Assembly (NCBI GenBank): GCA_902534675.1 | Contig: CACAQQ010000007.1 | Coordinates: 1-40,166 of the forward strand | Origin: an uncultured Prochlorococcus sp. | GTDB lineage: Bacteria; Cyanobacteriota; Cyanobacteriia; PCC-6307; Cyanobiaceae | Length of the DNA stretch: 40,166 bases | Direction: 5' to 3' | In this document: in pieces, positions 18,817-40,166 of the stretch | How positions within the stretch are numbered: position 1 is the stretch's first letter | Layout of the letters: each line of letters opens with the position of its first letter | Made by a program: the position numbers and the translations under genes | Notes under the pieces: model-generated | Told to the model about the DNA's origin: nothing | Databases searched by the model: none | What the model saw: the letters and a program-made list of their open reading frames with translations, nothing else

Positions 18817-19746
18817 TTGAAGAAAATTAATATGCAGCGAAGTTCAACATGGATACTGAAAAGTTTATGGGGAGCTTGTGAGCGATGGAGCAAATCAGAT
18901 TGTGTTGATTTAAGTGCTGCATTTGCATACTACACACTTCAATCATTTTTTCCTATTCTTCTAATTTCTCTTTCAATAGCTTCATGGTTTCTAGGAAAGC
19001 AAGAAGGATTAGATCAACAAATAATTTCTATTGCAGCTCAGCTTTTACCTCCTTCAGTAGTTGAGTTAGTAGAGACAACATTATTTAATTTGATAGATCA
19101 AGGGTTTGGAGCAGGTATTCTTGGAGCTATGTTTTTGCTTTTTACAGCAGGAAATGCATATCTATCTCTTCAAAGAGGTTCGGATAGGCTTTGGGAGGAC
19201 GAAATTCCTTCTAAAAAAGTTAATGCTGCTTGGAGAGTACAAGCTTCGAAGTTTCTCCGAAATAGAGTTGAAGCCTTTTTAATAGTATTCTTTATTGGTT
19301 TTTTAATGGTACTAGATCAAATTAGTGCAAATCTTAGGATGATCCCAAGTAACGTTTTAGAAAATCTTTCAAAATCTAATAATCTTATTTCTGATTTAAT
19401 ATTAAAGTTGCCGCTATTACAAGTTGGTCAGTTTGCAATACCACTAATTGGCTTTTCTTTAATGGCTCTTTTATTACAAGCACTTTTGCCCAGTAGAAAA
19501 GTTCCATTAAAACCACTTTTACCTGGATCTTTACTTATTGGAATTGGCCTTACCACTTTAAACCTAGCAGTAAGTAAAAGTATTCTCTCACTTGGAGTAA
19601 GATTTCAAGCATACGGTTTTATTGGAGGTTTTCTTGTACTTACTTTGTGGGTATGGCTATTAGGAGTCATTTTATATTTTGGACAGTGTTGGAGCGTAGT
19701 AATTGCTAGTATGACTTTAGTAAATAAAAAAAGAAATTATAGATAA
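18817..19746 (+). CDS. YihY/BrkB-family (UPF0761) membrane protein
   Basis: A 309-residue integral membrane protein with about six helices. Family features are the N-terminal DLSAAFAYYTLQSFFPILL, the QRGSDRLWEDE region after helix two, and the C-terminal SLGVRFQAYGFIGGFLVLTL with WLLGVILYFG. Once misannotated as RNase BN; its function is unsettled. Two starts are possible: TTG at 18817 (MKKINMQRS) or ATG at 18832, the second being plausible. A zinc-ribbon membrane protein follows 11 bases later, so the two are probably co-transcribed. Confidence 0.9.
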   Translation: MKKINMQRSSTWILKSLWGACERWSKSDCVDLSAAFAYYTLQSFFPILLISLSIASWFLGKQEGLDQQIISIAAQLLPPSVVELVETTLFNLIDQGFGAGILGAMFLLFTAGNAYLSLQRGSDRLWEDEIPSKKVNAAWRVQASKFLRNRVEAFLIVFFIGFLMVLDQISANLRMIPSNVLENLSKSNNLISDLILKLPLLQVGQFAIPLIGFSLMALLLQALLPSRKVPLKPLLPGSLLIGIGLTTLNLAVSKSILSLGVRFQAYGFIGGFLVLTLWVWLLGVILYFGQCWSVVIASMTLVNKKRNYR

Positions 19747-19757
19747 GGATAACTAAG

Positions 19758-20099
19758 GTGAATTATTTTCTAAAAGCTAATAAAAATCTTCTTACCTACT
19801 CATTAATCATACTTATCGTTATTCCAATTTTTGGATTTAACTTTTTCATTAGCTTTGTTGGAAATATCCTAATTCTTTTATTGTTAATTCCTCTTCTTTT
19901 ATTAGTTTTAGTGTTTATGAGTTTTAACTCTTATAAATCTAAAATTAATACATGCAGTAATTGTGGGGCAATATCATTAGGTTTAAATGAAACCTGCATG
20001 AATTGCGGTGCAGATTTAGAGAATATAGGTCAGAAAAATCAATTATATAAAAATCCTAGTGAAAGTACGATTGAAGTGGAAGCAGAAGAAATTAAATAG
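19758..20099 (+). CDS. Two-helix membrane protein with a C-terminal zinc ribbon
   Basis: A 113-residue protein starting at GTG. Residues about 12-55 hold two back-to-back hydrophobic helices, then a cytoplasmic CSNCG (about 72-76) and CMNCG (87-91) pair of CxxC knuckles form a zinc ribbon, then an acidic tail (STIEVEAEE). The layout resembles membrane-tethered zinc-ribbon proteins of the DUF/zf-ribbon type, but I do not recognise a named family. It follows the YihY-family gene by 11 bases on the same strand. Ends four bases before the hli stop on the other strand. Confidence 0.75.
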   Translation: MNYFLKANKNLLTYSLIILIVIPIFGFNFFISFVGNILILLLLIPLLLLVLVFMSFNSYKSKINTCSNCGAISLGLNETCMNCGADLENIGQKNQLYKNPSESTIEVEAEEIK

Positions 20100-20103
20100 A
20101 GTA

Positions 20104-20250
20104 CTAACCTATTCCAATTTGTCGAAGAATACTTTGTCCAGTAATTAATTCAGTACCAAGGCCAATCAAAATACCCATCATTGCCATACGGCCATTCCAA
20201 GTTTCTGCGAAATTTACGAACCCAAATCTTGGTTGATTGTCATTATTCAT
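20104..20250 (-). CDS. hli: High-light-inducible chlorophyll-binding protein
   Basis: A 48-residue protein too short for many gene callers. It reads MNNDNQPRFGFVNFAETWNG then RMAMMGILIGLG, i.e. the ETWNGRMAMMG motif, where the Glu and Asn bind chlorophyll and Glu-Arg pairs hold the helix dimer. One membrane helix. Hli proteins bind chlorophyll and carotenoid in the thylakoid, quench energy and help assemble photosystem II under light stress; Prochlorococcus carries many copies. Transcribed alone on the minus strand, 69 bases from the next gene. Confidence 0.95.
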   Translation of the reverse strand: MNNDNQPRFGFVNFAETWNGRMAMMGILIGLGTELITGQSILRQIGIG

Positions 20251-20319
20251 AATTAACTAAATTATCTATCAGATTATTTTAACGTTTTACGGAAGAATTT
20301 ATGATAAATAATTAATTAT

Positions 20320-20703
20320 TTATTTAACATGTCTAACACCATCAACAGGTCGATACTCATCTCCAGTTAACTCCTCAAATACAATGGCTGGCAATCCTGT
20401 ATCAAACATTGTTTGCAATGCTTCCTTTAACATAGGATTCCAACCTCCAGTACTAACTTTTCCATGTCTTACTGTCCAGTCCCAAGTCCCTTGAAGATCT
20501 CTGGGTAATCTACCTTCTCTATCTCTTCGAGCAACTAAGTCTAAAGATTCAACTATACCAACAATTACTGGATTTTTACCGTAAGAAGGCGTAAGACTTA
20601 GTTCAAGTCTCACTGGATCTTCTTTAACTATTTTTAAACGAAACCTTGGTGGTAACTTTAGTGATCTTATTACCGCTGAGACAATTTTTGTTCTTAATTC
20701 CAA
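20320..20703 (-). CDS. Conserved hypothetical protein, cyanobacterial type
   Basis: A 127-residue soluble protein I cannot assign to a named family. It opens MELRTKIVSAVIRSLKLPPR and has a strikingly conserved-looking centre (SLDLVARRDREGRLPRDLQG then TWDWTVRHGKVSTGGWNPM), rich in Arg, Trp and Gly. No membrane segment or cysteines. It follows the DUF2973-like gene by 24 bases on the same strand, with which it probably forms an operon. The low-variation look of the centre suggests a core cyanobacterial function, but none should be inferred. Confidence 0.8.
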   Translation of the reverse strand: MELRTKIVSAVIRSLKLPPRFRLKIVKEDPVRLELSLTPSYGKNPVIVGIVESLDLVARRDREGRLPRDLQGTWDWTVRHGKVSTGGWNPMLKEALQTMFDTGLPAIVFEELTGDEYRPVDGVRHVK

Positions 20704-20727
20704 TTTTTTTCCTTAGATATAATTTGA

Positions 20728-20991
20728 TTAATCAGCTGTAGAACCTTTTTCTTCTAATGAAGAGTCATTGTCATTAGAAAATCTTACTGTTAGTAGTTCC
20801 TCTTCTGTTATATTTCCTGATTTATCTAAAAGTTCTGGATGTATTGTGTACTTTTTTTGTTTAAAACTGGAACTACTCAATCGTTGATTTTTATTATCAG
20901 ATATATCCCAGCCATTAGACATAACTTTAAAAGCTCTCCAAACTAAATAAGTTAAGGCTGCAGAATATATTATTGGAAATAGGATGGTCAT
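20728..20991 (-). CDS. DUF2973-like small membrane protein
   Basis: An 87-residue protein with one N-terminal membrane helix (residues about 4-22, FPIIYSAALTYLVWRAFKV) and a cytoplasmic tail containing YTIHPELLDKSGNITEEELL then TVRF. The HPELLDxxGNxTxEELLTVRF core is what I know as DUF2973, a cyanobacterial family of unknown function. The extreme C-terminus is acidic. First gene of a pair with the 127-residue hypothetical. Upstream, 20,992-21,163 (172 bases) is the divergent gap with the HtrA gene; I see no RNA gene or reading frame there. Confidence 0.8.
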   Translation of the reverse strand: MTILFPIIYSAALTYLVWRAFKVMSNGWDISDNKNQRLSSSSFKQKKYTIHPELLDKSGNITEEELLTVRFSNDNDSSLEEKGSTAD

Positions 20992-21163
20992 CGAATTTAT
21001 AAATTAGTTAGTTGTATGTTTAACATCATAGCCCGAAAAAAAGAAATTTAGCTACTTTAAGTTATTAAATTGTGCTCTAGATTCAATAAATTTAATTAGT
21101 AGTTATATTTAAATTACACTGACATGGTGTATTAAATCTCTCGAAGAACATAAAAAATCAAAA

Positions 21164-22285
21164 TTGAAAAGAGACATCCAAAAGCTATTACTAATCGCCT
21201 TATTAATTTCAGTGGGCATTAGATATCCTGCAAAAGTCATATCCCAACAATTAAGTAAACCAAAAATTAATGAAGTAAATTTATATTCTAACAAATCTTT
21301 TATAACTAAAGCTGTAGAAAGAACCGGTGCAGCTGTGGTGACAATTGATACTCAAAGATATGTTAAAAAAAGAAATTTTCCAAAAAATTCTCAACTATTT
21401 CTAGACCCATATTTTGAGAGATTTTTTGGATTAGATTTGCCTAACGAAAATCGACCAAGGATAGAGCAAAATCAAGGCAGTGGATTTATATTTGCTGATG
21501 GACTCGTAATAACCAATGCACATGTAGTGAATGGCTCAGATAAGGTAATTGTAGGTTTAACCAATGGCAAAAAATTAAACGCTAAACTGATAGGTCAAGA
21601 CTCTTTTACTGATTTAGCTGTGCTAAAGATTGAAGGAAGAGGGCCTTGGCCAAAAGCAAAATTGGGCGATTCTTCAAAGATTAAAGTTGGGGATTGGGCT
21701 ATAGCAGTTGGAAATCCATTCGGACTGGAAAACACAGTTACGCTTGGTATTATTAGTAATCTAAATCGAAACGTAACTCAATTAGGAATATATGATAAAA
21801 AACTTGAACTGATACAAACAGACGCTGCTATTAATCCTGGCAATTCTGGAGGCCCACTTTTGAATAGCGATGGAGAAGTAATTGGTATTAATACGTTGAT
21901 AAGATCAGGTCCAGGAGCAGGTTTAAGTTTCGCAATCCCAATTAATAAAGCTAAGGAAATTGCCTATCAACTTTTAAACAATGGCAAAGTAATACATCCT
22001 ATGATTGGAATTAGTCTAATAGAAGAAAGTAATTCTGAGAGAAAAAATAATGTCGTAAAAGTTGGTTATGTAGTACCGAACAGTCCAGCTGAAAAAAGTG
22101 GAATCAAAATAGATGATATTTTAATTAAGATAGACGATAAAGATATTGCAACCGCATCAGACGTAATAGAACAAATTAGTAAAAACGGTATCAAAAAACC
22201 AGTAAATATATTATTGAAGCGTAAAAATAAATTTATTAAATTAAAAGTAATACCAACTGATATTACTAATCTACAAAATAATTAA
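21164..22285 (+). CDS. HtrA/Deg-family serine protease
   Basis: A 373-residue exported Deg protease for quality control of periplasmic or lumenal proteins. N-terminal hydrophobic signal (residues about 5-28), trypsin-like domain with the catalytic triad His120 (TNAHVV), Asp150 (SFTDLAVL) and Ser228 (NPGNSGGPL), then one PDZ domain (about 275-365, GYVVPNSPAEKSGIKIDDIL). Cyanobacteria have HtrA, HhoA and HhoB forms of this layout; which orthologue this is cannot be told. The start is a TTG at 21164, since no ATG or GTG precedes the signal peptide in frame. Upstream region is the divergent gap with the DUF2973-like gene. Confidence 0.94.
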   Translation: MKRDIQKLLLIALLISVGIRYPAKVISQQLSKPKINEVNLYSNKSFITKAVERTGAAVVTIDTQRYVKKRNFPKNSQLFLDPYFERFFGLDLPNENRPRIEQNQGSGFIFADGLVITNAHVVNGSDKVIVGLTNGKKLNAKLIGQDSFTDLAVLKIEGRGPWPKAKLGDSSKIKVGDWAIAVGNPFGLENTVTLGIISNLNRNVTQLGIYDKKLELIQTDAAINPGNSGGPLLNSDGEVIGINTLIRSGPGAGLSFAIPINKAKEIAYQLLNNGKVIHPMIGISLIEESNSERKNNVVKVGYVVPNSPAEKSGIKIDDILIKIDDKDIATASDVIEQISKNGIKKPVNILLKRKNKFIKLKVIPTDITNLQNN

Positions 22286-22290
22286 AAAAT

Positions 22291-22434
22291 TTAACTATCA
22301 TTCTCTTTAAGTATTTCCACACATCTAGAAATACATCTACCATCCCTTATATTACAGGAAGTAATGCATTCAAAATAAATTTCAATAGGATCAGAAATTT
22401 GAAAAGGTTTTTCTTGGAAATCGTAATTTTTCAT
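22291..22434 (-). CDS. 47-residue CX3C-CX3C mini-protein
   Basis: A short frame missed by a 60-residue cutoff: MKNYDFQEKPFQISDPIEIY then FECITSCNIRDGRCISRCVE. The two CxxxC pairs (CITSC and CISRC), eight residues apart, sit on two predicted helices and suggest a helical hairpin closed by disulfides, or a metal site. No signal peptide, so it is presumably cytoplasmic. I recall similar small proteins in marine picocyanobacteria but no function. It ends five bases from the HtrA stop on the opposite strand and lies upstream of the ABC-F gene on the same strand. Confidence 0.75.
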   Translation of the reverse strand: MKNYDFQEKPFQISDPIEIYFECITSCNIRDGRCISRCVEILKENDS

Positions 22435-22545
22435 TTAAATTATTCAAACCTACTTTTGTATTTTTAAGATTAATCAAGAACGGTAAATTATGTAAAGATA
22501 AATGAGTGATCTTACTTAGCCAATTGTAAATTTTATTAAAAGTAA

Positions 22546-24171
22546 TCAAATTTTTTGGCTTTGAGTTTTTTCTAAAAAATATTCGTAATTACCATTATAT
22601 GAAAATAACTTTGAATCTTTAATTTCAATAATTCTATTTGCAACCTTTGAAATAAAATACCGATCATGAGAAATGATTAATAATGAACCTTTATAATTTT
22701 TAATTGCTAATTCTAAGTTTTCCTTAGATTGCAAATCCAAATGATTAGTTGGCTCATCCAAAAGAAGGAAATTACTAGGATTAATAATCATAAGCGCCAA
22801 TGCTAATCTTGCCTTTTCTCCCCCACTGAGTTGTTTAATATATTTAAAAACTGTTTCATTTTGGAAGCCAAAACCCCCTAAAAAATTTCTAACTTTTTTT
22901 TGTGACCATTCTGGAGACTTATTACATATTAAATCAATAATCCTTTCGTCAAGTGAAAGTGCTTCAGCCTGATTCTGTTCATAATAGCTAGTAATTATAT
23001 TATGTTTACCAAGATTAATTTCTCCAATTTCAGGAGATATTTTTTTCATAATAATTTTAAGCAATGTAGATTTGCCGCTGCCATTAGGTCCCAAAATTGC
23101 TATTTTATCCCCAGAAGAAATCTTTAAATTAATATCTAAAAAAAGAATTTTATCCTCAAAACTATGAGACAAATTTTTGATATTTAGAACTAACTTTCCT
23201 GAGCGAGGGCACTCTGGGAAATTAAAAACAGGACTTTTTGATTTTGCTATGGGAGCCTCAATTTTAGAGATCTTTTTTAATTGTTTTTCTCTACTCTTTG
23301 CTTGAGAACTTCTAGTTGCACTAGCTCTAAATCTATCTATATACCTCTTCTGTAACTCAATTTCTTTTTGTTGTAATTGATATGCCTTATTTTGTGATTC
23401 TTCATTCAAAGATTTCTGTTCAACAAAAAAAGAATAGTTCCCATTATATGTTTCAGATGTTCCTCTATCTACAAAAATTATTTTTTTACATAATTTATCT
23501 AAGAAATATCTATCATGGCTGATTATGATAACAGCAATTTTAAGCGATGATAGATATTCTTCCAACCAAAAAATAGTTTCTAAATCTAAATGATTGGTTG
23601 GCTCGTCCAGTAAAAGTAAATCAGGTTTTTGTAAGATTATTTTTCCAAGTGCAACTTTCATCTGCCAACCACCTGAGAAATTGCCAACTAATTTATCAGC
23701 ATCTTCTATAGAAAAGCCTAATTTTGGTAATATTTTTTCTACATCAGATTGCATTTTATAACCACCTAAAGCTTCAAATTGTGCTTGATATTTTGCAAGT
23801 TGATTTACAAATATTTCAAGTTCATAGGAATTTTTTTTTATATCCAACGATTTCATTTTATTCTCAATTTCTAAAAGTTTAATGGCAACAATTTGTATAT
23901 CTTTAAAAGAACTTTCTAATTCCTGTCTCACTGAAAAATTCAAATTACAATCAAACTCTTGCTTTAAATGGGCAATTTTAGGATTTCCCTCTTTGATGAT
24001 CGCTCCACTTGTTTGCTCTTCTTCTCCAATTAAAATCTTAAATTGGGTTGATTTACCTGCACCATTAGAACCAACTAAGCCAACTTTTTCTCCTTTCTTA
24101 ATCTCCCAACTAATATCTTTTAAAACAACATCTGTAGAATAAATTTTGCTTACACCTTCAAATCTAATCAC
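22546..24171 (-). CDS. ABC-F family ATPase
   Basis: A 541-residue soluble protein with two ABC domains and no membrane part. Walker A motifs are GSNGAGKST (34-42) and GPNGSGKST (about 362), signatures FSGGWQMK and LSGGEKAR, and Walker B LLLLDEPTNHLD and FLLLDEPTNHLD; the charged inter-domain linker (about 255-315) includes SQAKSREKQLKK. ABC-F proteins act on the ribosome, for example in translation rescue or antibiotic protection; the exact subfamily is not resolved. Gene is single on the minus strand; the 111-base gap downstream of it up to 22,435 holds nothing I recognise. Confidence 0.94.
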   Translation of the reverse strand: MIRFEGVSKIYSTDVVLKDISWEIKKGEKVGLVGSNGAGKSTQFKILIGEEEQTSGAIIKEGNPKIAHLKQEFDCNLNFSVRQELESSFKDIQIVAIKLLEIENKMKSLDIKKNSYELEIFVNQLAKYQAQFEALGGYKMQSDVEKILPKLGFSIEDADKLVGNFSGGWQMKVALGKIILQKPDLLLLDEPTNHLDLETIFWLEEYLSSLKIAVIIISHDRYFLDKLCKKIIFVDRGTSETYNGNYSFFVEQKSLNEESQNKAYQLQQKEIELQKRYIDRFRASATRSSQAKSREKQLKKISKIEAPIAKSKSPVFNFPECPRSGKLVLNIKNLSHSFEDKILFLDINLKISSGDKIAILGPNGSGKSTLLKIIMKKISPEIGEINLGKHNIITSYYEQNQAEALSLDERIIDLICNKSPEWSQKKVRNFLGGFGFQNETVFKYIKQLSGGEKARLALALMIINPSNFLLLDEPTNHLDLQSKENLELAIKNYKGSLLIISHDRYFISKVANRIIEIKDSKLFSYNGNYEYFLEKTQSQKI

Positions 24172-32598: not shown

Positions 32599-33254
32599 TG
32601 AAATTATTAAATGAGTATGAATATAAAATACCAAAAATTTGGTTTTATGAGATTAAAGGTGTGCAAGATGTCGCAACTACAGAAGAAATTAAAACTGCAA
32701 AAAACCTAACAAATTCAAGATCAAAGATTTTCTTAGAAACAAGAGCTTATTTGCGACAATCACTCTCAACACTTTTTAATTTAGACCCCTTAGAAATTCC
32801 AATTAATGCTTATCCTGGAGAACCTCCAAGTTTACCCTCTGGCATGGGAAATATCAGTTTAAGTCATTGTAAAGATGCCATTACTATAGTCTGGCATAAA
32901 GGCAAAATAGGAATAGATATTGAGAGAACAGATAGAGATTTTAACTATTTAAAATTTGCAGAAAAATATTTTTTTCATACCAATAAATCAATCCATAATA
33001 ATTATTTGACAAAAAGTATGATATTAAATCAATGGTGTGCTGTTGAAGCGGCTATAAAATGGGATCATGGGAAATTAGCTCAAGACATTAACCATTGGCA
33101 ATTTTTTGAAAAGCCAAAAAAGTTAATTCATAAGAAGAAAAACATACATTTAAATTATTCACAGATTAACTTCCATAATTGGACTATCGCTTTAGCCTAC
33201 GAAGAAAAAACTTCTTTTAATCATGAGATTATTTGTTGTTCGAAAAATTTTTAG
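32598..33254 (+). CDS. 4'-phosphopantetheinyl transferase (Sfp/HetI family)
   Basis: A 218-residue enzyme that attaches the CoA-derived pantetheine arm to acyl carrier proteins. Visible motifs are the N-terminal IWFYEIKG, NISLSHCKDAITIVW (near 93), GIDIER (110-115, Mg ligands) and WCAVEAAIK (near 151). The last normally reads WxxKEA; the lysine is valine here. No ATG is available near the start: the frame is closed by a TAA at 32589-32591, so TTG at 32598 is the earliest and probable start. Convergent with rarA, overlapping by four bases. Confidence 0.88.
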   Translation: MKLLNEYEYKIPKIWFYEIKGVQDVATTEEIKTAKNLTNSRSKIFLETRAYLRQSLSTLFNLDPLEIPINAYPGEPPSLPSGMGNISLSHCKDAITIVWHKGKIGIDIERTDRDFNYLKFAEKYFFHTNKSIHNNYLTKSMILNQWCAVEAAIKWDHGKLAQDINHWQFFEKPKKLIHKKKNIHLNYSQINFHNWTIALAYEEKTSFNHEIICCSKNF

Positions 33255-34537
33255 TTTTCTTTTCTTCTAAGCAGTTCTTCATATTGAGTTTTTTCCCATC
33301 CATTATTATTTGGTTCCCATATTTTTAAACCTCTTAAAGATTTGGGAAGATATTCTTGTGCGATCCAATTACCTGGATAATTATGAGGATTAACATAACT
33401 ATTAGAATTATTTTTTAAATGAAGTGGAACATCAAAAGCATTTGTAGATTTGATAGTTTCAATTGCTTTAAAAATACTTTTCGTACTATTACTTTTTGAA
33501 GACATAGCTAAATATAAAGAAGCCTGCGTTAAGAAATATAATCCTTCTGGAAAACCTACTCTATCAAAAGCATCACAACAGGATTGTACAACTACTATGG
33601 CATTAGGATCAGCTATTCCAATATCTTCACTGGCAGATATAAGTAGTCTTCTAAAAATAAAATTAGGATCTTCACCAGCCTCCAACATATTCGCAAGCCA
33701 GAATAAAGTTGCATCTGGATCAGAACCTCTTATTGACTTGATAAAGGCACTTATTACATCGTAATGATTTTGACCATTTTTATCGTAAACAATATTTTTC
33801 TTTTGAATTGCATCCTCTGCTATTGAGAGATTAATCTTGATTTCTTTAGCATCATTTTCAGCAGTTGTTTCTATGGCCATCTCTAGGGCATTGATTAATG
33901 TTCTTGCATCACCGCCAGAAAATTTAACTAAATGACTTATAGCATCTTGAGTTAAATGAACCTTTTTTGAATCTTTTTTTGAATAATGCGTTATGACTTT
34001 TTGTATTACTTTCTGCAAATCATTCTCTGACAAAGGAAGTAATGTAAAAATACGAGACCTACTAACAAGCGCTTTATTAACAGCAAAGAAGGGGTTTTCA
34101 GTTGTAGCACCAATAAAAGTTATAGTTCCATTTTCTATTGAAGGTAATAAAGCATCTTGCTGAACCGCTGTAAATCTATGAACCTCATCGATAAATAAAA
34201 TTGTTTTTCTTTTTGAATTTATTAATCGATCTTTTGCATTAGCAATTTCATTTCTTAATTCTTTAACACTTGATAATACTGCATTTAACTTTATTAATTT
34301 TGAACGCGTATTAAAGGAAATAATTTCAATTAGAGTAGTTTTTCCAACACCAGGAGGGCCAGAAAAAATAAAATTACTAATCTTATCGTTTAATATTGCA
34401 CTTCTCAAAAGCGAATTCTCATTCAGGATTGGTTGTTGACCAAAAAAATCTTCCAAATTCTTTGGTCTTAATTTATCTGCCAAAGGTGCATTATTTTCTA
34501 TTTGAGAATAATTAGTAAATAAATTTTCTGAATGCAT
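33251..34537 (-). CDS. rarA: Replication-associated recombination protein A (AAA+ ATPase)
   Basis: A 428-residue clamp-loader-like AAA+ ATPase (MgsA/RarA), which acts at stalled replication forks. The Walker A is FSGPPGVGKTTL (58-69), Walker B ILFIDEVHRF with HRFTAVQQDALLP, sensor 1 GATTENPFF, sensor 2 region FSGGDARTLINALE, and the C-terminal part holds DPNAIVVVQSCCDAFDRVGF and the tetramerisation region. N-terminal APLADKLRPKNLEDFFGQ is the RarA opening. Located 33 bases downstream of the pgm stop side; same strand as pgm, so possibly co-transcribed. Confidence 0.94.
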   Translation of the reverse strand: MHSENLFTNYSQIENNAPLADKLRPKNLEDFFGQQPILNENSLLRSAILNDKISNFIFSGPPGVGKTTLIEIISFNTRSKLIKLNAVLSSVKELRNEIANAKDRLINSKRKTILFIDEVHRFTAVQQDALLPSIENGTITFIGATTENPFFAVNKALVSRSRIFTLLPLSENDLQKVIQKVITHYSKKDSKKVHLTQDAISHLVKFSGGDARTLINALEMAIETTAENDAKEIKINLSIAEDAIQKKNIVYDKNGQNHYDVISAFIKSIRGSDPDATLFWLANMLEAGEDPNFIFRRLLISASEDIGIADPNAIVVVQSCCDAFDRVGFPEGLYFLTQASLYLAMSSKSNSTKSIFKAIETIKSTNAFDVPLHLKNNSNSYVNPHNYPGNWIAQEYLPKSLRGLKIWEPNNNGWEKTQYEELLRRKEN

Positions 34538-34570: not shown

Positions 34571-36208
34571 CTATGTAATTACTGTGGGAGTTTCCATTTT
34601 AGTAAGTTTTGAAATGTTTAATAAAGCATCTAAATCATTTATTAGAGGTTTCAAAGCGATCTGAGGATTTAACGAAAGATTCTGTTGAGGACCAAAAAAT
34701 TTCTCAAAGTAAAGTCTTAATGTTGCACCCTTAGTTCCAGTTCCAGAAAGGCGCACAATTACTCGAGAATTATCATCAAGGACCAATCTTAAACCTTGAT
34801 TTTCACTTATGGATTTATCAACGGGATCTAAATATGAAAAGTTATCTGCAACTTTAACTAAATGACCAGCAAAATTAGTTCCTTTTAAAGTTTCAAGCAT
34901 AGAAGTTAGATTACCAAAGATTTGATTGGCAATATTTGAGGGGATTGCCTCATAATCATGTCTTGAATAATAATTCCTACCAAATTGTTTCCAATGATTC
35001 TGCATCAAATCACTTACCGAACATTTTTTCTCAGCTAAAACTTGTAACCAATACAAAACTGCCCATAGTCCATCTTTCTCTCTTACATGATTACTACCTG
35101 TTCCGAAACTTTCTTCTCCACATAAAGTAATTAAATTAGAATCTAAAAGATTTCCAAAAAACTTCCAGCCAGTAGGTGTCTCGAAACAAGGTATATTTAA
35201 TATTCGAGCAACATTATCAACCGCTGAGCTGGTTGGCATGGATCGTGCCACACCTGCAATACCATCTTTGTACCCAGGGACACATTTGGTATTAGCAGTA
35301 ATGACTGCAAGGCTATCACTGGGATTCACAAAACAAGCACTTCCTAAAATCATATTTCTATCTCCATCTCCATCGCAAGCAGCACCAAAACTATAAGATT
35401 TTTTATTTAATAACAAATCAGCTAAATGAGATGCGTAAGTAAGATTGGGATCAGGATGTAAACCTCCAAAATCTTTTAAAGGATTACCATTCATGACACA
35501 ATCATGTGCAAGACCCATTTTTTCAACAAAAATATTTTTTGCATATGGGCCTGTAACTGCATTCATTGCATCAAAGATTAATGAAAAGTCTTTTTTTAAA
35601 AAATCACTAATTTGATCGAAATCAAAAATTTTCTCCATCAAATTAGAGTAATCTTTCAATCCATCAATAATCTCTAAAGTAGTTTCACAGTAAGAATAAG
35701 TTCCATATTCACTAAAGTCAGGTAATTGGATTTTACAAATTTTATAATTAGTAAGTAATTGTGAAGTCTTGAAAATCTTATTAGTAATTTTCTCGGGAGC
35801 TGGACCACCATTAGAGATATTTAATTTCACTCCAAAGTCGCCATCAATACCACCAGGATTATGGCTTGCAGAAAGAATAATTCCGCCAATAGCGTTTTCT
35901 TTTCTAATTAAGTGTGACGTCGCAGGAGTTGATAATAAACCGTATTTTGGAACAATAACCTTTTGTACTTTATGAGCAACGCATATTTGCACAATTTTAT
36001 CTATTGCTTCAATATTGCCATATCTGCCGTCACCACCAACCACTAATGTAGAGCCTTGTAAATTTTCCAATGAATTTAAGATTGCTTCAATAAAAATTTC
36101 TAGATAATGTTCTTGTTGAAACCTTAAAGTACTTTTTCTTAAACCAGAAGTTCCTGGTTTTTGATCTACAAAAGGAGAATTTATATTAATTACATTAACT
36201 TGAGTCAT
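34571..36208 (-). CDS. pgm: Phosphoglucomutase (alpha-D-glucose type)
   Basis: A 545-residue phosphohexomutase that interconverts glucose-1- and glucose-6-phosphate, feeding glycogen and sugar-nucleotide synthesis. Four-domain signature: active-site phosphoserine loop LSASHNPGG (Ser115), metal loop DGDGDRNM (near 280), sugar-binding GEESFGTGSNH (near 367), and phosphate-contact RLSGTGTKGATLRLY (near 495). N-terminal KPGTSGLRKS is usual for the alpha-PGM branch. Complete and normal in length. The 31-base gap to the next gene upstream has no reading frame. Confidence 0.96.
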   Translation of the reverse strand: MTQVNVININSPFVDQKPGTSGLRKSTLRFQQEHYLEIFIEAILNSLENLQGSTLVVGGDGRYGNIEAIDKIVQICVAHKVQKVIVPKYGLLSTPATSHLIRKENAIGGIILSASHNPGGIDGDFGVKLNISNGGPAPEKITNKIFKTSQLLTNYKICKIQLPDFSEYGTYSYCETTLEIIDGLKDYSNLMEKIFDFDQISDFLKKDFSLIFDAMNAVTGPYAKNIFVEKMGLAHDCVMNGNPLKDFGGLHPDPNLTYASHLADLLLNKKSYSFGAACDGDGDRNMILGSACFVNPSDSLAVITANTKCVPGYKDGIAGVARSMPTSSAVDNVARILNIPCFETPTGWKFFGNLLDSNLITLCGEESFGTGSNHVREKDGLWAVLYWLQVLAEKKCSVSDLMQNHWKQFGRNYYSRHDYEAIPSNIANQIFGNLTSMLETLKGTNFAGHLVKVADNFSYLDPVDKSISENQGLRLVLDDNSRVIVRLSGTGTKGATLRLYFEKFFGPQQNLSLNPQIALKPLINDLDALLNISKLTKMETPTVIT

Positions 36209-36240
36209 ATTTTTAAGAAACTCTAAAAAATCTAACTAAA

Positions 36241-36411
36241 TTAATGAGGCATTTCGGAAGTTCTTAACATAGCGATAAACCATAATGAAGAAATTAACAA
36301 TGCACTAAGAATGCCATAGTTAACACCAAATTTAGAAATTGTAATTGGAACTATTAGTGGAAAAGTTAATGCTCCAAACAAAGGAGTAAAAGCTACAATT
36401 TTTTTTAGCAT
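36241..36411 (-). CDS. 56-residue small membrane protein
   Basis: A short frame reading MLKKIVAFTPLFGALTFPLI with a second hydrophobic stretch SALLISSLWFIAMLR and the tail TSEMPH. Two membrane helices joined by a short loop (TISKFGVNYGI). It lies 12 bases downstream of the DUF4912 stop on the same strand and 32 bases before pgm, so it is likely co-transcribed. No named family recognised; the length, two-helix layout and clean ATG-to-stop frame between two same-strand genes support it as real. Confidence 0.68.
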   Translation of the reverse strand: MLKKIVAFTPLFGALTFPLIVPITISKFGVNYGILSALLISSLWFIAMLRTSEMPH

Positions 36412-36423
36412 TAATTTAATTAA

Positions 36424-37499
36424 TTAAAACCATTCTGTTTCAGCTTTATCTTTTTCATTAGTATCGTCAAGTGGTGTAGTTCTATCAAATTTCATTGATA
36501 TACTTTTTTCTTGCTCACCAGATACATCAACAGCTTTAATATCATATATTTGAGTCCCGTCTCTAAATGGAACTTGAATTCTAAAGGTACCGTCTGCAGC
36601 AAGAGGTACCTCTTCTCCACCTATTGTCAGTTTTGCGGAAGGCTCTGTAGCTCCATACACAATTAATTCAGCATCAGCAACGAGCCAAAAAGATCTATTT
36701 TTGACAATTCCACTTCCCGAATCATTTAAACCTGATGACCACTTACCAACCCCTGAATCTGTAAGATTATCATTGAGATTTGTTGAATTTACATTTTCCA
36801 TGAATTCTTCAGAACCAACTTTTCTTCTTAGAGGAATATTAGTTGCTGCTTGATATAATCTTTCATGCATACCATTTTGTTCTGAAAAAACAGGGTTTGA
36901 AACATCTGGGATTGACTCAGGCGTAGAATCCAGATTGAAAGGTACAAATTTATCAAGAATTTGCTCGGATGGATGTGATCCTGGAACATGACTTATCGAA
37001 GAGAATGCCAATGACATCCAGTTAAAACCGTATTTGTAACCTAATTCAACCTTGTAATCTCTATCGGCAAGTGGGATTGGTAAGTACCATTCAGTACTAA
37101 AACTATCAACAGCTATCTCCCTTAATGTGCCTTGATTCAAATTACTTCCATCAGAACCAGTTGCATCAAATAATCTTAAACACAACTTGTTTGCTCCCAA
37201 AGATTGTGCTTTTTCTCTGTCAACATCAGAAATTTGCCAAAAAACATATGCCCAATCTGGATCTCGGGGTAAAAATACTACATTTGTTTTGACTTCATCA
37301 CTAACGTTAGGAGTATTGGAATTAAAAGTATCTTCAACTTCGGGCTCTGGTGCGCTGATATTTGTTTTCTTAGAAGATTTTTCCTGATATTTAAGTACTA
37401 AGTCAACTAAGACAGCCTTTGTCTTACGGCTGTAAAGCGGTACTGATAATTTACTAGCTTCTTGACGTAATTGTCTGAGGGTAAGTGAGAATTTTTCGG
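36424..37499 (-). pseudogene. DUF4912 protein gene, headless 5' end
   Basis: The open frame runs from the stop at 37512-37510 to the stop at 36426-36424. It carries a SAP/Rho-N-like N-terminal segment (LTLRQLRQEASKLSVPLYSR), a disordered acidic linker and the DUF4912 domain (PDWAYVFWQISDVDREKAQS onward, then KLCLRLFDATG and SFSTEWYLPIPLADRDYKVE). No ATG, GTG or TTG precedes the TTG at 37200, which lies inside the domain, so the true start is missing. The frame meets sufD sequence near 37,487-37,499. A gene caller would truncate it to 258 residues and lose the PDWAYVFWQ core. Function of DUF4912 proteins unknown. Confidence 0.85.
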
Positions 37500-37700
37500 A
37501 TATGGTATATCAAATTTTGAATCTTTTTCATTAACTGAGTAATCTAAAAAGTTTGACAATTTTGATTTATTTGAAAGTCTCCATAGTTCACTTTTAGGAT
37601 TAGGAAGAGGGCTTGATTGTAATTTATGAAGACAGATTTTTTGTATTTCTGTTTGATTATCATTCGATTTATTAGTTTTTATTTTTTCAATAATTTCCAT
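37407..37700 (-). pseudogene. sufD: Truncated sufD, N-terminal fragment fused out of frame
   Basis: A 97-residue frame whose first about 71 residues are the N-terminus of SufD, the SufBC2D scaffold partner: HKLQSSPLPNPKSELWRLSN then KSKLSNFLDYSVNEK. Normal SufD has roughly 400 residues. From about residue 68 (nucleotide 37,499) the codons are a wrong-frame reading of the DUF4912 5' end and stop at 37407. The beta-helix and C-terminal domains are absent. It begins four bases after sufC, the expected order sufB-sufC-sufD; sufS, normally next, is missing from the window. Confidence 0.87.
37487..37497 (-). other. Breakpoint with 11-base microhomology
   Basis: The minus-strand bases GAAAAATTCTC read as P-K-N-S in the sufD frame (with the C before) and as E-K-F-S in the DUF4912 frame. 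Both readings fit their families, so the junction cannot be placed more exactly than this stretch, as expected if the two genes shared these bases before being joined. Confidence 0.6.
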
Positions 37701-37704
37701 TTGT

Positions 37705-38478
37705 TTAGGTCTCTTTTATAAAGTTATCAGTCCACTCATAACCTTTTTCCTCAAGCTCTAGAGCAAGATCACTCTCACCAGTTTTTATGATTTGTCCGTC
37801 TGACATAACATGGACATAATTTGGTTTAATTTCATCTAATAATCTTTGATAGTGGGTAATAAGTATAATTCCTGTTTGTGCATTAGATATTTTTTTAATT
37901 CCTGATGCCACTATTCTTAGAGCATCGATATCTAGACCAGAATCGGTCTCATCTAATATTGCTATCTTGGGCTCAAGTAAAGCCATTTGCAGAATCTCAT
38001 TTCTTTTTTTTTCACCTCCGGAAAAGCCTTGATTTACACTCCTTGATAGGAATGCGTGATCCATTTTCACAATTTCTAACTTTTCTTTAACTAATTCTTC
38101 AAAATCAAAAGTATCCAATTCTTCTTTGTTGAGGAATTTCCTTCTAGCATTAGTTGAAACTCTAAGAAACTCAAGATTACTTACACCTGGAATCTCAATT
38201 GGATATTGAAAACCAAGAAAAATTCCTGATTGAGATCTCTCTTCAGGTTCTAGAGAGTTAATGTTTTCACCTAAAAATTTAATGTCGCCATTTGTAATAT
38301 TGTACGAGGGGTGTCCTGCAATGATTTTCGAAAGAGTACTTTTGCCACATCCATTTCTTCCCATAATGGCATGGATTTCTCCAGGATAGACAGTAAGTGA
38401 AACTCCTTTTAAAATTGGAAGATTATCAGTAGATGCAGAGAGATTTTCAACTTCTAAAATTGGATCTGATTCTTTCAT
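37705..38478 (-). CDS. sufC: SUF Fe-S assembly ATPase
   Basis: A 257-residue soluble ABC-type ATPase of the SufBCD scaffold for Fe-S cluster assembly. Walker [10 protein letters not shown] (near 39), Q-loop [12 protein letters not shown] (near 93), signature [11 protein letters not shown] (near 156), Walker [14 protein letters not shown] (near 177), His switch ITHYQRLL (near 215). The ETDSGLD Walker B and YPIEIPG loop are SufC-specific. The ATG at 38478 is preferred over the in-frame 38490. It follows sufB by about 20 bases. Its partner SufD is broken here, so an intact complex could not be made from this locus as written. Confidence 0.96.
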
Positions 38479-38511
38479 TTTACTTTGCATTTCAGTTTAG
38501 AAATTGATTAA

Positions 38512-39954
38512 TTAACCTACTGATCCCTCTAGTTTCAGTGCCAGCAACTTATCTGCTTCAGCAGCAAATTCCATGGGCAATTGATTAAATACATCTCTGC
38601 AAAAACCGCTGACCATCATAGATACTGCCTCCTCAAATTCTATACCTCTGCTTTGGAGATAAAAAAGTTGGTCTTCTGAGATTCTACATGTGCTTGCTTC
38701 ATGCTCAATTTCAGAATTGGGTTGTTGAGATTTGATGTAAGGAAATGTATTTGCAGAAGCTTGATCCCCTATTAACATTGAATCACATTGACTGTAATTT
38801 CTTGATCCTGTAGCTTTTGTTCCCATTTTGACAAGACCTCTGTAGCTATTTTTTGAGTTACCTGCACTAATACCTTTGCTAACAATAGTTGATTTGGTCT
38901 TAGGACCAATATGGATCATTTTTGTGCCTGTATCTGCTTGCTGAAGATTATTGGTGAGAGCCACTGAATAAAATTCTCCTACAGATTCTTCCCCTAAAAG
39001 AAGACAGCTAGGATATTTCCATGTAATTGCAGACCCTGTTTCAACTTGAGACCAACTAATTTTACTTCTCTTACCTAAACATTTTCCTCTCTTGGTGACA
39101 AAATTAAAAATTCCGCCAATACCTTCTTCATCACCAGCATACCAATTTTGCACTGTTGAATATTTTATTGAGGCGTCGTCTAATGCTATAAGCTCTACAA
39201 CTGCTGCATGTAAGGTATTTGTATCAAACATTGGAGCTGTACAACCTTCTAGATAACTTACAGAACTTGATTCTTCAGCAATGATTAGTGTTCTTTCGAA
39301 TTGCCCTGAATCTCCACTATTAATTCTAAAGTAGGAAGATAGATCCATAGGGCAAGTAACACCTTTTGGGATATAAACAAAAGAACCATCACTAAAAACT
39401 GCAGAATTTAGTGCTGCAAAATAATTATCACTAGCTGGAACTACTGTACCTAAATATTTTTCAATCAAATCCGCGTGATTTTTTACTGCTTCACTAATTG
39501 AGCAAAATATAACTCCATGTTCAGCAAGTTCTTCTCTAAAAGTTGTAGCTATAGAAACACTATCAAAGACAGCATCTACTGCAACATTTGTGAGTTTTTT
39601 TTGCTCCGTGAGGGGTATCCCTAATTTGTCAAAAGTCTCAAGAAGTTTGGGATCAACTTCATCTAAGCTAGAAATTTTCTCTTTTTGCTTAGGAGCAGAG
39701 TAATAAATAATATCTTGATAATCAATTTTTTTATATCCTAATGCTGCCCAATCAGGCTCTTTCATTTTTTGCCATTTCTTAAAGGCTTTTAATCTAAAAT
39801 CGAGAAGAAACTTTGGCTCTTCTTTTTTCTGTGAAATTAATTTTATGATATCTTCATTTAATCCCTTTTCTATTTTTTCAGTTTCAATATCAGTAACGAA
39901 ACCATATTTGTAAGGCTCCTTTACTACATTTTTAACTAAATTTTCGTTAACCAT
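38512..39954 (-). CDS. sufB: SUF Fe-S cluster scaffold protein B
   Basis: A 480-residue scaffold subunit. Typical features: [20 protein letters not shown] at the N-terminus, [20 protein letters not shown], the [20 protein letters not shown] strand near 215, [15 protein letters not shown] with the family cysteine, and [20 protein letters not shown]; the C-terminus has [20 protein letters not shown] with another conserved Cys. The frame is open 40 codons upstream, but the ATG at 39954 gives the family length and N-terminus. Divergent from the partial gene at the right edge; the gap has a TATATAA-like element but no clear SufR-type CAAC-N6-GTTG site. Confidence 0.96.
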
Positions 39955-40049
39955 GTTATTCAAAAATAACCTATTACAATTAGCTTTATATACTCTAACG
40001 AAAGATACCCCCAATATTGCGTTTTTTCTTTTATTAAAACTAAAAATTA

Positions 40050-40166
40050 ATGTCAAATAATCTTGATCCCACATCAGATCCTATAAATATCCAAACTATT
40101 CAAGAAATTGACAATCTAGAATTACCAATAATGCAGAAGCATCATGTAAGAATACTTGCTCATTGT
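40050..40166 (+). CDS. Unidentified gene, N-terminal 39 residues, cut by window edge
   Basis: An ATG frame open to the last base: [20 protein letters not shown] then [19 protein letters not shown]. It has an acidic N-terminal stretch and then a helix-like [15 protein letters not shown]. Position, divergent from sufB, is where cyanobacteria often encode the repressor SufR, but the residues seen here do not show a DNA-binding helix-turn-helix and I cannot assign it. More sequence to the right is needed for any call. Confidence 0.5.

Follow-up and report, generated by a model that had tools for sequence, protein, structure and literature searches.

The interrupted sufD gene of an uncultured Prochlorococcus genome is very probably an inverted amplification chimera

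The window, that is the whole stretch of 40,166 nucleotides that was analysed, carries near its 3′ end a group of suf genes read from the minus strand. SUF is the main Fe-S system of Prochlorococcus. The features of this part of the window are given below; the names rarA and pgm are those of a sequence-only reading made earlier on the same DNA.

33251-34537, minus strand: rarA (AAA ATPase), native neighbour of pgm, collinear with genomes G003, G004 and G024
34571-36208, minus strand: pgm (phosphoglucomutase), native neighbour of the DUF4912 gene, collinear with the same three genomes
36424-37488, minus strand: DUF4912 gene without its first 12 codons, inverted with respect to the suf genes of relatives
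37486-37490, minus strand: probable chimeric junction, a 5-base overlap TCTCA, which 8 of 11 relatives have at each of the two native sites
37491-37700, minus strand: 5′ part of sufD, native sequence, codons 1-70 (codon 71 falls in the overlap), matching the sufD of relatives up to the junction
37705-38490, minus strand: sufC, intact
38512-39954, minus strand: sufB, intact, 480 aa when counted from the start matching relative L041 (the start in the ORF list lies further upstream)
40050-40166, plus strand: start of a divergent gene cut by the contig end (40166), 117 aa in L041 and lying between sufB and DUF4912 in relatives

The minus-strand ORF at 37407-37700 comprises 97 codons (97 aa). It opens as the SufD of relatives (a 405-aa ORF in L041), whose N-terminal sequence it follows to codon 71 (37490-37488), and diverges after this codon into an out-of-frame reading of another gene. 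No Pfam match was obtained in the 97-aa ORF at E 0.001; in particular, SUFBD_core (PF01458), which the same type of search finds in the full SufD of L041, is absent from it. The frame running from 37488 downward to a stop at 36424 encodes a DUF4912 protein from its residue 13 (PF16258, E 1.1e-30). Both genes, sufD and DUF4912, are cut at the junction. In the window sufS does not adjoin sufD, and DUF4912, then pgm and rarA, are found instead. The description given by the sequence-only reading, a SufD abandoned at about residue 71 for a wrong-frame reading, with sufS missing and rarA, pgm and DUF4912 next to it, is therefore correct as far as the window goes.

The same reading had called for a comparison of the sufBCDS gene order with that of relatives. 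Of 24 relatives of the same genus searched, 19 gave a full-length SufC match, and in all 19 loci (taken with about 1.5 kb per side) similarity to the window stops at 37486-37500. Longer flanks were taken for 11 of these 19 relatives. In all 11, sufS-sufD-sufC-sufB share one strand in this native order; past sufB, the opposite strand carries first the 117-aa gene (that of G004 or its relative) and then DUF4912. The latter is followed by pgm in 10 of the 11 (the eleventh stretch, L042, has no pgm match), and pgm by rarA in the three genomes traced further (G003, G004 and G024). BLAST places the DUF4912 side of the window past sufB and in the opposite orientation in 11/11 relatives, where 3,217-3,225 bp separate the two joined sites. 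Since DUF4912, pgm and rarA of the relatives are found past sufB in the opposite orientation, the window shows an inverted join at this point and not a deletion of adjacent genes. The three genes are native neighbours that belong beyond sufB and have been attached backwards.

The same picture was obtained along the whole window. Bases 1-37490 are collinear with the reverse strand of G003 and G004, and of G024 from base 161 onward, and bases 37486-40165 match the three genomes on the forward strand. Once matches shorter than 200 bp were dropped, the flip at 37486-37490 was the only one against these genomes; here the sequence moves back by about 3.2 kb, into sufD. The overlap between the BLAST matches on the two sides of the junction is 5 bases long in 9 of the 11 relatives and 4 bases long in L051; the more distant L048 shows none. 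TCTCA is not whole at one or both native sites in L045, L048 and L051, and the length of the overlap at the native sites of this genome itself is presumed from its relatives. An overlap of at least 5 bases was reached by 1.05% of 200,000 random inverted joints drawn within L041. The junction lies 2.7 kb from the contig end.

Identity to G003 and G004 is mostly 93-98% in the window. It dips to 84-93% per kb at 19000-22999 (with the exception of 96% to G003 at 19 kb) and at 35000-37485, and other low bins are seen to G004, e.g. 89% at 27 kb. These dips perhaps reflect ordinary allelic divergence or recombination.

The junction is private to this genome. A search of 266 genomes of the genus with a junction-specific 31-base pattern, allowing at most one mismatch, gave a match in 1 genome, this one. 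A pattern scan for the junction in a collection of genome contigs, which may not include this genome, gave no match; of the two, the search of 266 genomes is the stronger test. A pattern for the native DUF4912 start was present in 175 of the 266 genomes, including 70 of the 87 that are at least 90% complete, and was not found in this genome; in the other 91 genomes, this one included, the region may be missing or divergent in sequence. We also aligned 80 further SufC loci, the best 80 of 179, from records named Prochlorococcus or uncultured Synechococcaceae. Among these 80, the sufD site is crossed natively in 78 and the DUF4912 site in 69; 65 cross both sites and hold the whole sufS, and none of the 80 contains an inverted piece of at least 100 bp. 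The 13 loci failing at one site are aligned to within 2 bases of the stretch end on the failing side, with the exception of L143. In L143, bases 1-52 do not align to the native locus and the rest does; this is perhaps another joint at a contig end.

The assembly contains a second junction of similar form. Stretches of 20 other contigs and the window were compared with a 773-kb part of G004, and matches shorter than 300 bp and contained matches were dropped. Any match to G004 was obtained for 11 of the 21 stretches, and 10 were comparable. The eleventh, C16 (locus L078, 15 kb), matched the 773 kb only weakly, over 1 kb (68%); it may come from another part of the genome or from a variable island. 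Flips were seen in 2 of the 10 comparable contigs, the window (C7) and C13. In C13, bases 1-332 match the reverse strand of G004 and bases from 323 onward the forward strand, with the joined sites 481 bp apart in G004 and a shared 6-base word, ACAGCT. This junction (bases 1-346, locus L075) lies 332 bp from the contig end. It was found in 1 of 40 genomes, its own, in a search of that genome with 24 other genus members and 15 members of other genera, run without a positive control for the native form. Judged by its inverted, short-range form, the C13 junction appears to be a chimera of the same kind as the sufD/DUF4912 junction. Among 12 further stretches, for which matches shorter than 150 bp were dropped, 9 were collinear without a flip, 1 gave a 248-bp match and 2 gave none.

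The remainder of sufD and sufS was then sought in the assembly, which comprises 819,015 bases in 56 contigs and is estimated at 52.79% complete with 0.08% contamination. The sequence-only reading had considered a complete copy of sufD and sufS elsewhere in the genome. A PF01458 search of the assembly returned one match, SufB, and no second SufD. The rest of sufD with sufS from a relative, used as a DNA query, gave no match (40 of 108 first-look candidates were scored). A comparable search with the sufB-DUF4912 stretch of a relative found the contig of the window at 88% identity, so the DNA search works at that divergence; with this query, the approximately 544 bp that should separate the contig end from the start of DUF4912 were not found in the assembly. 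PF00266 gave 7 matches, none of which was accepted as SufS, since the best scores 218.9 bits compared to 464 bits for the SufS of a relative. A second copy is thus without support in the assembly. As only about half of the genome was recovered, the absence of the rest of sufD and of sufS is expected; it says little about a copy elsewhere and does not show that the genes were lost. Among the titles of the literature matches listed, none dealt with sufD loss in Prochlorococcus.

The origin of the DNA is relevant here. Of the best 80 named records kept in the SufC comparison, 69 have AG- or AH- isolate names, a style which we take to denote single-cell genomes; some of the AG- records are titled 'MAG'. 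A public set of Prochlorococcus single-cell genomes is described as amplified by MDA or WGA-X (PMC6122165). The present genome is presumably part of such a set and would then be a single amplified genome, with which its 52.79% completeness in 56 contigs fits. For MDA of single cells, Lasken and Stockwell (2007; PMC1855051) report that 406 of 475 chimeras were inverted, that 337 of these 406 joined sites less than 10 kb apart, and that complementarity of at least 2 bp (up to 21) was present at the joint in 93.5% of the inverted chimeras of less than 10 kb. The present junction has the same properties: the segment after it is flipped relative to 11/11 relatives, the distance there is 3,217-3,225 bp in each, 8 of the 11 have the shared word TCTCA (within the 2-21 bp range) at each native site, and the join is absent from independent genomes (1/266, its own; 0/80 loci with an inverted piece of at least 100 bp).

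We consider it very probable that the cut sufD is an inverted chimera that formed while the DNA of one Prochlorococcus cell was amplified by strand displacement (phi29 MDA or the like) and that the assembler retained. In this scheme, a strand being extended through sufB-sufC-sufD would be displaced on reaching sufD codon 71. The word TCTCA at the 3′ end of this strand would then pair with its complement on another displaced strand close by, at the DUF4912 start about 3.2 kb away, and extension would proceed through DUF4912, pgm and rarA; the same event could also have occurred in the other direction. Because of such inverted annealing and extension, the suf genes would seem to run into genes whose native place is past sufB, in the opposite orientation. 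We infer that the join was made in the tube rather than in the living cell. The chimeric origin by amplification or assembly error, one of two possibilities raised by the sequence-only reading, is strongly supported by a private and inverted junction, a short shared word, a distance of about 3.2 kb and the second junction in C13.

Short shared words occur also at real inversions in cells, and the chimeric form is the only one in the assembly, where the native junctions were not found. A real 3.2-kb inversion in the living cell, with breakpoints at sufD codon 71 and DUF4912 codon 13 and both genes disrupted, would produce exactly one of its two expected junctions in the window, the contig ending (40166) before the other. 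We nevertheless regard it as very unlikely. It would break a gene of the core Fe-S system, whose role is regarded as essential, and it would have to be private to one genome: the junction pattern is absent from the 265 other genomes of the genus, many of them incomplete, and the 80 loci (best 80 of 179) hold no inverted piece of at least 100 bp. Another junction of amplification type is moreover present in the same assembly (C13). The reciprocal junction, which would link the rest of sufD and the segment from the contig end to the DUF4912 start, is not in the assembly either, a weak argument with half of the genome missing. A real inversion would imply that a cell can lose SufD or compensate for it.

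Two other explanations are scarcely credible. The sequence-only reading had proposed that a block comprising at least the rest of sufD and sufS was lost. A deletion of this kind, in the cell or in the assembly, would agree with the absence of both pieces from the assembly; however, the sequence following the junction lies inverted behind sufB and not beyond sufS in 11/11 relatives, a gene order that contradicts the proposed block loss. A pure assembler misjoin, made without any chimeric molecule, would suit a join located 2.7 kb from a contig end, but usual assembler word lengths are far above five bases, so that some molecule carrying the join is needed, and the inverted short-range form recurs in C13.

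The chimeric reading removes a false gene loss: for this genome, it would be a mistake for any catalogue to list sufD as a pseudogene or sufS as a lost gene. The case also provides a cheap test for partial single-cell genomes: before a gene is declared lost, one should be wary of orientation flips that occur within a few kb and overlap by only a few bases. In this assembly, two such joints were seen among the 10 contigs comparable with a single relative, each of them close to the end of its contig (2.7 kb and 0.3 kb away).

Compared to the native suf locus of Prochlorococcus (G004, L041), the window has the same sufC, sufB and sufD codons 1-71 and the same order DUF4912-pgm-rarA. It differs in that its DUF4912 side is joined backwards to sufD, and it is without the rest of sufD, sufS and the approximately 544 bp behind the contig end. 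Relative to the inverted MDA chimeras reported in PMC1855051, which were seen in single reads, the junction of the window is found in an assembled contig whose amplification is deduced. It resembles them in its inverted join, in the distance of less than 10 kb and in the short complementary word at the joint.
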